Part shown: piece by piece, positions 11,354 through 17,287 of the stretch | Numbering within the stretch: the first letter of the stretch is position 1 | Layout: each line of letters begins with the position of its first letter | Assembly: GCA_017656165.1 (NCBI GenBank) | Contig: JACDOL010000014.1 | Coordinates: 1 to 37,805 of the forward strand | Reading direction: 5' to 3' | DNA length: 37,805 nucleotides | Source: Desulfotomaculum sp. | Lineage (GTDB): Bacteria; Bacillota; Desulfotomaculia; Desulfotomaculales; Desulfohalotomaculaceae | Program-made: the position numbers and the translations under genes | The notes under the pieces: generated by a model | Seen by the model: the letters and a program-made list of their open reading frames with translations, nothing else | Told to the model about the DNA's origin: nothing | Database searches by the model: none

Positions 11354-12163
11354 CTACAGCCCCACATGGGCAGCCTCTACTACCCTTGTTATATCAATAT
11401 CATTTATTTTAAATTCCTCTCGTTCTTTATTTCTAGTAAAATAAAGTAAAAATTCTATATTCCCTTCCGGGCCTTTTACAGGTGAGTAGTCCAAGCCCAG
11501 CACCTTGTATTCCAGTTCTTTAGTTAAGTCTAAAACTGCTCTTATAACATCCCTGTGAACAGCTGGATCGCGAACAACACCCTTTTTACCTACTTTTTCG
11601 CGACCGGCCTCAAATTGGGGTTTAATCAGTGCTACCCCGTCAGCATCTACTGTGGTCAGCTCCAGCAGTTTAGGAAGCACTTTTGATAATGATATAAATG
11701 AAACATCAATTGTTACAAAGTCAGGTAAATCATCAAGTTTATCAGCCGTCAGGTGGCGAATATTTGTTCTTTCTAAAACTACTACCCTCGGATCCTGACG
11801 CAGTGACCATGCCAGCTGTCCATAACCAACATCTACAGAGTATACTTTTTGTGCACCGTTTTGCAGTGCACAGTCAGTAAACCCCCCTGTAGAAGCACCA
11901 ACATCCAGCACTATCTTCCCGTTAAGGTCGATTTGGAAAGATTTTATAGCTTTCTCCAGTTTTAAACCGCCCCTGCTTACGTAAGGCAGGAGATTCCCCT
12001 TTACTTCTATCTTTACATCATCACTTACCTGGTACCCGGGTTTATCTACTCGCTTACCATTGACAAAAACTAAGCCCGCCATCACTGCAGAGCGGGCTTT
12101 TTCCCGGCTGGCAAACTGGCCCCGGGATACAAGTACCTTATCCAATCTCTGTTTACCAGACAT
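11354..12163 (-). CDS. tlyA: TlyA family 2'-O-methyltransferase with S4 domain
   Basis: TlyA proteins methylate ribose of 16S/23S rRNA and are often called hemolysin A. The N-terminal S4 RNA-binding domain (about 1-60: RLDKVLVSRGQFASREKAR) is followed by a Rossmann methyltransferase with motif I IVLDVGASTGGFTDCAL and later IKPQFEAGRE. I chose ATG 12163 (MSGKQRLDKVL), 5 bases after GGAGG. The frame extends 7 codons further to 12184 without a better site. At 269 residues it fits the family. It starts 21 bases after dxs, as in many Gram-positive dxs-tlyA pairs. Confidence 0.94.
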   Translation of the reverse strand: MSGKQRLDKVLVSRGQFASREKARSAVMAGLVFVNGKRVDKPGYQVSDDVKIEVKGNLLPYVSRGGLKLEKAIKSFQIDLNGKIVLDVGASTGGFTDCALQNGAQKVYSVDVGYGQLAWSLRQDPRVVVLERTNIRHLTADKLDDLPDFVTIDVSFISLSKVLPKLLELTTVDADGVALIKPQFEAGREKVGKKGVVRDPAVHRDVIRAVLDLTKELEYKVLGLDYSPVKGPEGNIEFLLYFTRNKEREEFKINDIDITRVVEAAHVGL

Positions 12164-12184
12164 GAGCACCTCCAGTAATGGCAT

Positions 12185-14080
12185 TTATTTCTGGGCCGCA
12201 TGCAGTTTTGGACGCTTTCCAACCATGTGCAGGGCTTTCATTACAATATTGTCCACTGTCAAACCGTATTTTTCCCGCATTATGGACGGAGCACCGTGTT
12301 CTACAAATTCATCTTTAATTCCCAGCCTGTTAACTTTAATGTTGTGTAATCCTTTGGCCTCCAGCATTTCTAATACAGAACTGCCAAACCCACCGGCTAG
12401 AACATGTTCTTCCACTGTGATAAGCCGCCCGGTTTCAGCGGCATAATGAGCAATGCACTGGTCATCCAGCGGCTTTATGAACCGGGCATTTATTACTGCA
12501 GCTTGTACACCTAATTTAGCCAGTTCCCCAGCGGCCTCTTCAACAAGCGGCACCATGTTCCCAATGGCTGCCAGTGTCACATCACTTCCCCGCCGCAGCA
12601 CCTCTGCTTTCCCCACCGGCAGTGCCAGCGGTTCCTCATCCATGGGGGACCCTATACCTGCCCCCCTGGGATACCTTACAGCACAGGGCCCCGGCAGTTC
12701 TAATGCCGTTTTCAGCATATGCTGCAGCTCATTTTCATCCTTTGGAGCCATTATAGTAATATTAGGTATGGAGCGTAAAAAAGTAATATCAAATAAACCC
12801 TGGTGAGTGGCACCATCATCTCCCACAATGCCGGCCCTGTCTATGGCAAATACTACCGGCAGGTTCTGGAGGCAGACATCATGCAGAACTTGATCGTAGC
12901 CCCTCTGTAAAAATGTCGAGTATAATGCCACCACCGGTTTATACCCCTTAATGGCCATCCCAGCCGCTAACGTTACTGCATGCTGCTCTGCTATGCCGAC
13001 ATCAAAAAAGCGGTCGGGATAATGCTGAGCAAATTTATCCAAGCCTGTCCCGCTGGCCATTGCTGCGGTAATGGCTATGATTTTTTTATTTTCCCCGGCT
13101 AATTTTATCAGCGTATCACTGAACACAGAAGTATAGGTGGGAGCAGAATTCTTCTTCAATGCTTCCCCAGACACAATGTCAAAGGGGCCTGTTCCGTGAA
13201 ATTTATCCGGGTTTTCCTCTGCTGGTTTATATCCTTTACCCTTTTGGGTAATAACATGAACCAGTATGGGCCCTTTCATGGCCTTTGCCTGCTTTAATAT
13301 ATTAATGGTTTCATCAATATTGTGGCCATCTATTGGCCCAAGATAAGTAAATCCCAGTTCTTCAAAAATCATCCCTGGTACAACCAGGTATTTTAAACTA
13401 TCCTTCAGGCGGTCTGCCACTTTTAAGACCTGTTTACCAATGGGAAGTTTTTTCAGCAGATTTTCAATTTCGTCTTTTCCCCGGGAATACATGGGATCAG
13501 TTCGAATGCGGGTTAGGTACTTGGATAATCCCCCCACATTTTCTCCAATACTCATCTCATTATCGTTTAAGATTACTATAAAATCTGTCCCCAGGTGACC
13601 GGCATGGTTAAGGGCTTCAAAGGCCATGCCGCCTGTCATAGCCCCATCCCCAATTATTGCTGCTACCGAATATTTTTCCCCGCTCATATCCCTGGCTAAA
13701 GCTAAGCCAAGGGCTGCAGAGATAGAAGTACTGCTGTGCCCAGTTCCAAAGGCATCATGATTACTCTCTGAACAACGAGGAAAACCTGACACTCCCCCGT
13801 ACTTTCTCAGAGTATAAAATTCATTCCTGCGCCCGGTAAGCAGCTTATGCACATAGCATTGGTGACCTACGTCAAACACTATTCTATCCCTGCTGGTATC
13901 AAAAACTTTGTGTACCGCCAGGGTAAGTTCAACCACTCCCAGGTTGGGTGCCAAGTGCCCTCCATTCTTAGAAACAGTTTCAATAATTGCTTCTCGCAGT
14001 TCACCGGCCAGCTCTTTCAGCTGGTTGTTATTTAATTCCTTTAGATCACGAGGTGAATTAATACTATTCAGTAAATTCAA
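12185..14080 (-). CDS. dxs: 1-deoxy-D-xylulose-5-phosphate synthase
   Basis: This enzyme condenses pyruvate and glyceraldehyde 3-phosphate to DXP, the first step of the MEP isoprenoid pathway, using thiamine diphosphate. Visible are the N-terminal [14 protein letters not shown], the TPP/Mg motif [18 protein letters not shown] ... NDNEMSI, and the transketolase central and C-terminal domains with [16 protein letters not shown]. Length (631) is normal. It starts at TTG 14080 with AAGGTGG 10 bases upstream. That ribosome site is displayed in the loop of an 8-bp hairpin. It follows oapA by 29 bases and, with ispA beyond the OLE RNA, supplies isoprenoid precursors. Confidence 0.97.
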
Positions 14081-14109: not shown

Positions 14110-14694
14110 TTAATGAGAACGTTTTTTGCGAAAAGGATCTTTACCCATTAATTTTTGAATCCAAGCTATATTTTTACCCACAAAAAAAATAATGTTGTGA
14201 CAATATCGCAGAGCAAATTTTTTACCCAGGGCTTTCCCTGCCACTGTCATTGCAGCAATGGAAGCAGTAATCAGTATATTAAGGATAAAAACGTCCCACT
14301 GAGGTTTAATTATTATTAAACGGGCCACAATGCTTATTCCTAAAGCACCAGAAACTGTTCCAGCTATGTCCCCGATAACATCATTGGCTATGTTTGCCAC
14401 TCGGTCTGCATTTCGTATTAAATAAACACTCTGCTGGGCTCCTAAAACACGATTTGCAGCCATGGCGTGGAAGGGTGCTTCCTGGGCCGCTGTCACTGCT
14501 GTTCCCAGGACATCAAAAGTAATTCCAATAAATATAATTACCAACAATATAATAAAAGATAAGGCTATACTTTCTAATTCCCTGATAAATAATTCCGAAA
14601 TGATGGAAAAAATTACTGCCAGTGTAAAGGATCCTATTCCAATTATTAATACATAAAAAATAGAAACACTGGATTTATTGTTATTATGGCCCAA
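14110..14694 (-). CDS. oapA: OapA, OLE RNA-associated membrane protein
   Basis: This 194-residue integral membrane protein has about four hydrophobic segments: residues 11-33, 43-66, about 116-128 and 133-152. Between them is a charged, conserved-looking stretch: [16 protein letters not shown], then [19 protein letters not shown] with a DxxxD motif (D105, D109). The basic tail FRKKRSH suits RNA contact. It lies directly downstream of a ~640-base structured RNA and upstream of dxs, the diagnostic position of OapA, which binds OLE RNA as a dimer and brings it to the membrane in Bacillus halodurans. It resembles DUF21-type transporter domains superficially but lacks CBS domains. It starts at TTG 14694 behind GAGGTGG. 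Confidence 0.88.
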
Positions 14695-14718
14695 ACATTA
14701 CCACCTCATCAAAATATG

Positions 14719-15359
14719 GGTGTGGGCTGCTAAACAGCAGCCCACACCTATCGATCTATGTAACGTGTGCCGGTGATAACTTGCCGGGTAAATGTTGCGG
14801 CTTAGGTCTAGCAGGTTTTCCCAAAAGACCACCAGCTGTCGCCAGACTGGCGGTTTCCCTTTAAGGTCTTTTCCGGCCGTTACCGTCACCGGGGCTAGAT
14901 TGCCACTTAGTCCGCACTGCAATCCCCGGCAAGCCCTGGACACAACCAGACAGCCTAGGAGTTTTCCTCGGCAGAACACTCCTTTTCTAGCCTCTTTTGC
15001 AGCAATGGTTTCATCCAGCTTTATACCAGGATGGGCCCAAACTGGAATAAAGCTTTTCATGGAATCCACCATTACCACTCAAGGCAGGCTACGCTACACG
15101 CAGCTTTCCCCACGTGTAGGTTTTCCCAAGCCGCAGTACTTAACAGTACCACAAACTTGGGCCTCCGCGGTGACAGGGTCAATTCCCACATGCCCTTGTG
15201 GGCTGCCCTACCACCTTAACTCCCAGCACCACCCCCGACTGGGCGTCGAAAGCAAGCACCAGGAACTTCATCGATGTGCCCTTAGCGGATTTTTAGGCCC
15301 GCTTTCGAAAAGGCTGTTCTGACTAGGATACTGCATCACCGACACGCCTTTTTTTCTGC
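14719..15359 (-). ncRNA. ole: OLE RNA (ornate, large, extremophilic)
   Basis: No gene fits 14699-15510; the frames seen there lack plausible protein character. Instead the minus strand is rich in complementary segments. Bases 14823-14830 pair with 14865-14872, enclosing 14841-14845/14847-14851. Bases 15094-15100 pair with 15113-15119, extended by 15087-15090/15129-15132. At the 3' end a perfect 13-bp hairpin is formed by 14719-14731 and 14736-14748. A sigma-A promoter sets the 5' end near 15359, giving ~640 bases, close to the known ~610-base OLE RNA. The location between ispA and oapA-dxs is the classic OLE context. OLE RNA forms a membrane ribonucleoprotein with OapA and is linked to stress tolerance; its exact mechanism is unsettled. 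The 3' hairpin has no good U tract, so the RNA may be processed from an ole-oapA transcript. Confidence 0.9.
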
Positions 15360-15365
15360 AATCAG

Positions 15366-15395
15366 ATTATAGCATAATTAAATATACAATGACAA
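15366..15395 (-). promoter_or_regulatory. Sigma-A promoter of OLE RNA
   Basis: On the minus strand TTGTCA (15395-15390), an 18-base spacer and a consensus TATAAT (15371-15366) predict a transcript start near 15359. This is the best sigma-A promoter in the block and would give OLE RNA its own transcription apart from ispA. Bases 15396-15510 hold a near-repeat of AAACCTATs (15418-15446) and no gene. Confidence 0.8.
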
Positions 15396-15510: not shown

Positions 15511-16395
15511 TTAATAATCTCTATTAATAATAAAATTTACAGCACTGCGCAAAAATTCTCCTCTAGGGCCAAAAGCCTCTAAAGCATTTATGGCATTATC
15601 TGCCGCTTCCCTGGCTTTTCTCCGGGCAGCCTCAATGCCAAACAGTGCCGGGAAAGTAGCTTTTTGATTTTTTTCATCACTGCCTACAGGCTTGCCAATT
15701 TTTTGAGAATCGCCTTCCACATCTAAGATATCATCTATTATTTGAAAGGCCAGACCTAAGTTTTCAGCATAGTTAGTTAATGCCTGCAGCTGCAGGTCAC
15801 TGGCTCCACTTAATATGGCCCCTGCACGAACAGAAGCCCGGAACAAAGCACCGGTCTTGTGCCGGTGAATATATTCCAGGGTTTGGGCGTCTACTTCGCT
15901 GCCTGCTGAAATAGTATCAACCACCTGTCCACCTATCAGCCCCTTAGATCCTGACAGCTCGGCAACTTCCTGAATTACCCTGACGACTAAATCTGCCGGG
16001 GCGGTTTTTGCATTTTCAGCTAACAGCTGGAACGCTAGAGTTAAAAGAGCATCTCCAGCTAAAATGGACACAGCCTCACCAAAAACTACATGATTGGTAG
16101 GCTTTCCTCGACGCATATCGTCATTATCCATAGCTGGCAAATCATCATGTACCAGTGAATATGTGTGAATTAGTTCCAGCGCACAAGCTGTCGGCAATAC
16201 CCGCTGTGGGTCGCATCCAACTGCTTCTGCGGCTCCAATAACCAGTGCCGGCCTTAATCTTTTTCCCCCGGCGAGAAGGCTGTAACGCATAGCCTGGTGT
16301 ATTATTGATGGGTAAGTGGATTCTTGAGGTACGTACTTTTCAAAAGCTTTCTCCACCAGTTCTGCTCGTTCTTTTAACTGCTGTAGAAACTCCAC
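15511..16395 (-). CDS. ispA: Polyprenyl (farnesyl) diphosphate synthase
   Basis: This prenyltransferase makes farnesyl diphosphate from IPP and DMAPP/GPP. The first Asp-rich motif is DDLPAMDNDDMRRGKP (about residues 79-94), containing DDxxxxD, and the second is IIDDILDVEGD. The spacing of the first motif is that of bacterial type II FPP synthases. Length (294) is normal. It starts at GTG 16395, sharing one base with the xseB stop (TAGTG), with GGAGG 9 bases upstream, so the two are translationally coupled. The xseB-ispA order is common in bacteria. OLE RNA is the next gene downstream. Confidence 0.95.
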   Translation of the reverse strand: MEFLQQLKERAELVEKAFEKYVPQESTYPSIIHQAMRYSLLAGGKRLRPALVIGAAEAVGCDPQRVLPTACALELIHTYSLVHDDLPAMDNDDMRRGKPTNHVVFGEAVSILAGDALLTLAFQLLAENAKTAPADLVVRVIQEVAELSGSKGLIGGQVVDTISAGSEVDAQTLEYIHRHKTGALFRASVRAGAILSGASDLQLQALTNYAENLGLAFQIIDDILDVEGDSQKIGKPVGSDEKNQKATFPALFGIEAARRKAREAADNAINALEAFGPRGEFLRSAVNFIINRDY

Positions 16396-16643
16396 TAAGC
16401 CTGTCCTCCCCCGTTAATTACCTGCTGTTCTTTTAAAAATAATCCCCCGTCTTGATCTTCCAATAATGTGCTGATGCTCTTCTCCGCATTCTCCAATTTT
16501 TCATTACATAATTTAGCCATTTTAATACCTTCGGCAAATAACTCCAGTGCCTGATCTAAAGGCAGCTCCCCGTCCTCCAGCTGCTTAACCACTTCTTCCA
16601 AACGGGCAAGGGCCTCTTCAAATTTTATATTTTTTTCCGGCAT
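16395..16643 (-). CDS. xseB: Exodeoxyribonuclease VII small subunit
   Basis: XseB joins XseA to form exonuclease VII, which degrades single-stranded DNA. The 82-residue protein has the family core [20 protein letters not shown], ending in [16 protein letters not shown] chose ATG 16643 ([12 protein letters not shown]) because AGGAGG lies 6 bases upstream. The frame is open 10 codons earlier but only within the preceding gene's end. It starts 12 bases after the fchA-like gene and is separated from xseA by that gene and folD, an arrangement seen in acetogen-like Firmicutes. Confidence 0.95.
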
Positions 16644-16654
16644 TGACATCCTCC

Positions 16655-17287
16655 TCAGCCTAAGCGAGAGCAAACAATTTGAACGGTTTTATTTCTTAGA
16701 TCCGTCGCTTCTGCAGTTAACCGTTCTTTCTGTTGATTTGCTGCATTTATAAATTCCTGATCTTCTATCCTGGGAATGTTGCAGTCAGCAGTTATTAATG
16801 CTGCCTTGACCGCTGCCTCCGCTAAATAAGCTGCAACAGCAGCATCGCTGATTGCATTTTTAGTTCCTTTTTCGGCCACCTGCAGGGCCAAAGACAGCAC
16901 TTCCACCCCTGCGGAAGCAATATTTAAGGGGGTGTTGGTAGCACTTTTTAAAGCCTCTTGAAGCTGCTTCTTTCTTTCTATTTGTTCTTCAGCTGTATTC
17001 TTGGGGAGTTTTAATACCTTCATGAAAGTTTCAAAATGGTTCATGTCTTCCCGGGCTAAATACTGCAGTTTCTCCATCAGCTCAGATCCGCGCTGAATTA
17101 GCTCGTTAATTTCTTCTTCTACATGACGGTATTTTTCTTTACCAGTGGTAAGATTGCCCACCATTTGTACAAGGGCTGCTCCCATAGCTCCAGTTAAAGC
17201 CGCAGCACTACCTCCCCCGGGGACAGGGCTGTCTGATGATGTTATTTTTAAAAAATCTCCCACACTTTTCTTTAGTACATCACTCAT
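16655..17287 (-). CDS. fchA: Cyclodeaminase/cyclohydrolase family protein (FchA-like)
   Basis: This 210-residue helical protein of the FTCD-C/FchA family has the signature [20 protein letters not shown] near residues 17-36. Relatives act as methenyl-tetrahydrofolate cyclohydrolase (FchA of acetogens) or formimino-THF cyclodeaminase. No histidine-degradation genes are near, whereas folD is directly upstream (20-base gap). I therefore infer cyclohydrolase: methenyl-THF to 10-formyl-THF. This fits the observation that the adjacent FolD lacks its own cyclohydrolase residues. It starts at ATG 17287 with AAAAGGAG 8 bases upstream. Subfamily assignment by sequence alone is moderate. Confidence 0.85.

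Follow-up and report, generated by a model that had tools for sequence, protein, structure and literature searches.

Few conserved bacterial RNAs whose chemical function is unknown are, to our knowledge, as large as OLE, and this RNA has been claimed, strikingly, to span the membrane. Alignments, partners and cryo-EM models have already been published for it. An all-protein counterpart of the OLE-OapA complex has been proposed, namely MpfA, the occurrence of which reportedly anticorrelates with that of OLE. In Halalkalibacterium halodurans, OLE is part of a membrane-located ribonucleoprotein (RNP) that contains OapA and is involved in metal-ion and stress adaptation (PMC12265935, PMC10898510); the published functions of the OLE RNP are described in PMC12265935, PMC11332333, PMC9723947 and PMC10898510.

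The locus analyzed here belongs to a 37,805-nucleotide stretch of DNA from Desulfotomaculum sp. (contig JACDOL010000014.1; hereafter, the window). Scanning the whole window, on both strands, against 4,227 Rfam families yields only one match above threshold, namely OLE (RF01071) at positions 15355-14757 of the minus strand (526.3 bits, E 9.6e-152). The gathering score of this family is 50 bits and the match spans model positions 1-616, that is, the full length of the model, so that the OLE RNA recognized in the preliminary description is recovered in its entirety; its length, previously given as about 640 nucleotides, is corrected to about 600 (599 by the model). We put at about 0.97 the probability that the segment is a full-length OLE RNA accompanied by its partner OapA and, as such, an ordinary example of the known system. 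The features of the locus, in the direction of transcription, are as follows.

16395..16673, minus strand: xseB, upstream neighbour (NCBIfam TIGR01280, 78.5 bits against a cut-off of 35)
15511..16395, minus strand: ispA, farnesyl diphosphate synthase, upstream neighbour (NCBIfam NF045485, 391 bits)
15390..15395, minus strand: -35 element TTGTCA (from the sequence; TTGTCA or TTGATA in four family relatives)
15366..15374, minus strand: extended -10 element TGcTATAAT, 18-nt spacer to the -35 element (from the sequence; conserved in family relatives)
14757..15355, minus strand: OLE RNA, 599 nt, full length (Rfam RF01071 and covariation in 36 sequences)
14719..14748, minus strand: 13-bp hairpin just 3' of OLE (exact inverted repeat, conserved core)
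14110..14694, minus strand: oapA, 194 aa, TTG start, ribosome-binding site AGGTGG at 14706-14701 (DxxxD motif, position, CNNM-like fold)
12185..14080, minus strand: dxs, downstream neighbour (NCBIfam TIGR00204, 882 bits)
11354..12184, minus strand: tlyA, downstream neighbour (NCBIfam TIGR00478, 298 bits)

The previously noted gene order xseB-ispA-RNA-oapA-dxs-tlyA is borne out by NCBIfam, Pfam and the open reading frames, the complete arrangement being xseA-folD-fchA-xseB-ispA-OLE-oapA-dxs-tlyA (with xseA and folD assigned from open reading frames only). The OLE-oapA pair thus belongs to a conserved cluster of isoprenoid, DNA-repair and translation genes. The source genome (2.29 Mb, 169 contigs, 99.9% complete) contains a single copy of OLE. 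The single genomic copy and the ispA-OLE-oapA-dxs setting are shared with the OLE RNAs of H. halodurans, Clostridium acetobutylicum and other Bacillota, as are the full extent of the model, all the helices and the dimer loops. Unlike in those RNAs, P8 is short, as it also is in the relatives from the same family and order-level group (including L031 and L032), and an additional conserved hairpin is found just 3' of the RNA in the family to which the window belongs. The reduced forms of OLE known as variant 1 and variant 2 (PMC11332333) both differ from the window RNA, in which P7, P8 and the 3'-domain hairpin with the GGCGAC loop are all present.

The published structure of OLE is strongly supported by covariation. 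In the window, 147 of the 155 mappable pairs of the Rfam model are standard pairs and, across 36 OLE sequences, 91.3% of the cells are paired under the Rfam structure, compared with 40-48% when the partners are slid. Changes on both sides of a pair number 98 in these 36 sequences against 77.6 +/- 2.9 in shuffles, and the covariation score is 0.518 against 0.204, with none of the 500 shuffles performing as well. Chance is excluded because of this excess of two-sided changes over the shuffles and the 91% pairing as opposed to 40-48% with the partners slid. The same data bear on the possibility that the segment encodes a protein, for example, the 176-aa antisense frame (14792-15322, plus strand) or the 126-aa frame on the minus strand (14698-15078). 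Such open frames do exist, but the Rfam match accounts for the whole segment, conservation tracks base pairs, as indicated by the 98 pairs changed on both sides, and the long minus-strand gene begins only past OLE in every relative. Both frames were ruled out given that conservation follows the base pairs, and the probability of a protein-coding origin of this segment is negligible. The segment was earlier described as gene-free and, indeed, there is no plausible minus-strand gene between the end of ispA (15511) and the start of oapA (14694).

Several elements of the OLE fold have been assigned specific roles. The P4, P5.1/P6.1 and P9 loops are the dimer contacts identified in the cryo-EM work (PMC12286853, PMC12265935), and the location of the k-turn for OapC has been described as well (PMC9723947). 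The corresponding elements of the window RNA are the following.

15284..15303, minus strand: P4-type hairpin with the A-rich loop CCUAAAAA (loop conservation; role in the A-A dimer contact from PMC12265935/PMC12286853)
15214..15279, minus strand: putative OapC k-turn region, GCACAUCGAUGAAGUUCC ... CUGGGAGUUAAGG around P5 (almost invariant alignment columns)
15240..15244, minus strand: P5.1 loop GCCCA, proposed to form an intermolecular kissing contact with the P6.1 loop (from the sequence)
15192..15195, minus strand: P6.1 loop GGGC (from the sequence)
15032..15039, minus strand: P9 apical loop UGGGCCCA, a self-complementary loop assigned to the symmetric kissing contact of the dimer (from the alignment)

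The A-rich loop is identical in 30 of the 36 sequences, the remaining 6 carrying a single C/G change. The P5.1 and P6.1 loops of the window could form 4 G-C pairs; the P5.1 loop reads GCCCC in three sequences, all of which have GGGC in P6.1. The core of the P9 loop can pair with itself in every one of the 36 aligned sequences, 34 of which have GGCC and 2 AGCU. In two sister genomes (L007 and L008), the P9 kissing loop is GAGCUC in place of GGGCCC, a change that preserves self-complementarity and thereby supports the published symmetric dimer contact. All three published dimer-contact features are intact in the window RNA, which is predicted to dimerize.

The size, conservation and intricate fold of OLE, together with the many invariant columns in the present alignment, would also befit a ribozyme, for example, a synthase of a nucleotide signal, with OapA serving as a mere tether. 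The nucleotide-signal synthase idea is a speculation of the discoverers of OLE (PMC11332333). Catalytic activity has never been demonstrated, however, and the window sequence is neutral in this respect, and we regard a ribozyme as an unlikely alternative to an RNP that functions in ion handling and stress adaptation.

The OLE RNA is preceded by what appears to be a strong promoter of the extended -10 type, in which TATAAT itself occupies positions 15371-15366 and is preceded by TG. The promoter had been described as TTGTCA-18-TATAAT, and it is found exactly so and is conserved in four relatives from the same family (L002-L005), which have, at the same place, TTGTCA or TTGATA, a 17-nt spacer and TGnTATAAT. 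Transcription is expected to start near position 15359.

At the opposite end of the RNA, the 13-bp hairpin reported in the preliminary description is exact, with perfectly paired arms (14748-14736 and 14731-14719) and a 4-nt loop. This hairpin separates OLE from the ribosome-binding site of oapA and is family-specific: its core, GGGCUGCU...AGCAGCCC, is retained in L002-L005, and the outer pairs are altered on both sides yet remain paired in these four relatives (e.g., G-C to A-U), whereas it was not found in the order-level relatives L031 and L032. Because the U run that follows is weak (CCCAUAUUUUG), the hairpin may be only a partial terminator or else an element involved in processing, stability or protection of the RNA end. 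Ahead of oapA, a promoter is followed by a structured leader and then by a hairpin conserved in the family, an order compatible with a segment acting mainly in cis, in which the leader and its terminator-like hairpin would control the expression of oapA and dxs. Such a role is highly improbable considering that the structure of about 600 nt and the dimer loops are conserved far beyond the needs of a leader, that the hairpin is absent in the order-level relatives, that OLE persists in genomes where it adjoins neither oapA nor dxs, and that the published OLE functions as an RNP (PMC12265935).

The product of 14110-14694 was proposed to be OapA, a four-helix protein with a DxxxD motif, and this assignment is upheld by the motif, the position, homology and the fold. 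The motif is DVIGD (residues 105-109), and both D105 and D109 are invariant in sets of 14 and of 26 diverse OapAs; DxxxD separates OapA from CNNM domains, which lack it (PMC11332333). The AlphaFold model (pLDDT 85) contains four long predicted helices (12-39, 43-69, 96-129 and 135-163). In a Foldseek search of 350,542 PDB chains, the top five were all CNNM/CorB/CorC proteins; the probabilities were 0.99-1.00 for the first four chains, the E-values were weak (0.03-1.1) and no other family came close. Profiles of OapA and MpfA align collinearly (E 7.7e-5), and the Pfam CNNM model is matched by 6 of the 14 OapAs (best E 3e-6). The window OapA alone matches no Pfam or NCBIfam family above the cut-off, CNNM included, so the link to CNNM rests on the profile and fold comparisons; a search of PDB sequences with the OapA profile gave no match. 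Together, these comparisons suggest that OapA is a CNNM/CorB-like four-helix membrane protein with a distant relationship to CNNM. The membrane-domain fold and the collinear profile match are thus common to OapA and the MpfA/CorB/CorC (CNNM) Mg2+ transporters; unlike these, OapA possesses DxxxD and has neither CBS nor CorC domains, the window protein (194 aa) consisting of the membrane domain only, with no CBS pair and CorC domain after it. With respect to known OapAs, length, the four membrane helices, the invariant DxxxD and the place directly after OLE are all the same, with no notable difference. Identity to the other OapAs compared is about 35-78%; among named Bacillales, the OapAs of Lentibacillus, Pontibacillus and Alkalihalobacillus share about 44-46% identity with the window protein and are encoded directly downstream of OLE, and the nearest titled record in the public genome collection, 'Bacillota bacterium isolate MES5', encodes an OapA with 79% identity.

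Genes for the other partners are present in the same genome. The OapB gene (102 aa) lies between map and infA; it was missed by the KOW Pfam model and was identified by this position and by a match to PDB 7k9b, 'OLE-associated protein B' (E 6.8e-9). The OapC/YbxF gene is found between rpoC and rpsL, and there is a gene for bS21 (Ribosomal_S21, E 2.7e-21). With OapA and the genes for OapB, OapC/YbxF and bS21, the genome therefore holds every confirmed partner that has been published; as with the identity and fold of the RNA and of OapA and with the dimer loops, these assignments derive from sequence analysis.

The only CNNM protein of this genome besides OapA, with the MpfA-type CNNM-CBS-CorC architecture, is encoded by a broken gene (G000:C118:2020-3157, equivalent to L045:2020-3157, minus strand). 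The CNNM part stops at ...KVMVPRTAG*, the second CBS/CorC part resumes in another frame and, compared with an intact relative, about 65 codons corresponding to the first CBS domain are missing. The break may reflect decay of a redundant system or else a fault in the assembly, the latter being possible because the genome is fragmented. Relatives have from none to two intact CNNM copies, and some close relatives keep OLE in addition to one or two of these; OLE and MpfA thus do not strictly exclude each other within the family.

By analogy with the published work on H. halodurans, from which the membrane location, partner binding and the stress role are transferred to this organism, a mechanism can be outlined. 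OLE would be transcribed from its own promoter, probably also by read-through from ispA, fold, and then dimerize via the P4, P5.1/P6.1 and P9 loops. OapA would hold the dimer at the membrane, and OapB, OapC and perhaps bS21 would also be bound. The resulting complex would most likely adjust the handling of divalent metal ions and stress adaptation; ions would probably be moved by OapA, and OLE would take the place of the CBS/CorC control domains that MpfA has in the cytosol. To this ion-handling mechanism we assign roughly even odds.

OLE is widespread in the phylum, being present in 284 of the 399 genomes sampled, and in 6 of the 7 genomes of the family. An additional OLE sequence adds little given this abundance, also in covariation, for which the preliminary description expected a new variant to be useful. 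The OapA gene starts shortly after OLE in all 35 phylum loci with flanking sequence, the window included, and, among the 80 closest OapA loci of the public genome collection, 77 have OLE ahead of OapA; these come from such genera as Moorella, Thermoanaerobacterium, Lentibacillus, Pontibacillus and Clostridium, and the 80 do not include BH2780. In at least two relatives, Desulfovirgula sp. (L054:2974-3582) and Peptococcaceae BICA1-7 (L056:2995-3579), oapA is located between ispA and dxs, directly after ispA, without OLE. A complete OLE is found elsewhere in both genomes (L132:1501-2059 and L133:1501-2060, both minus strand), with a TetR-type gene on one side and a helix-turn-helix gene on the other; the RNA is unlinked from oapA in these genomes and therefore must act in trans. 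In a Desulfotomaculum metagenome-assembled genome (L083:1-305), oapA similarly lacks an OLE directly upstream, and pieces of OLE are found on another small contig (G406:C122), which could mean either an unlinked OLE or a broken assembly. Total absence of OLE is ruled out for all three genomes, each of which contains it elsewhere. No mention of the unlinked arrangement was found in PMC11332333, although it may have been reported elsewhere.

Altogether, the locus is a clean and complete example of OLE from a little-studied family of Bacillota, and its sequence is in line with the fold and dimer contacts published for this RNA; taken alone, it leaves the open question of the chemical activity of OLE unchanged. 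More interesting than the locus as such are the broken mpfA and the relatives in which OLE is unlinked from oapA. With a complete OLE RNP, the sole MpfA-type gene broken and a trans-acting OLE in some relatives, this lineage could, quite tentatively, represent a natural test of the interchange between OLE and MpfA. These are small new data points that bear on the idea that OLE-OapA and MpfA share one job.
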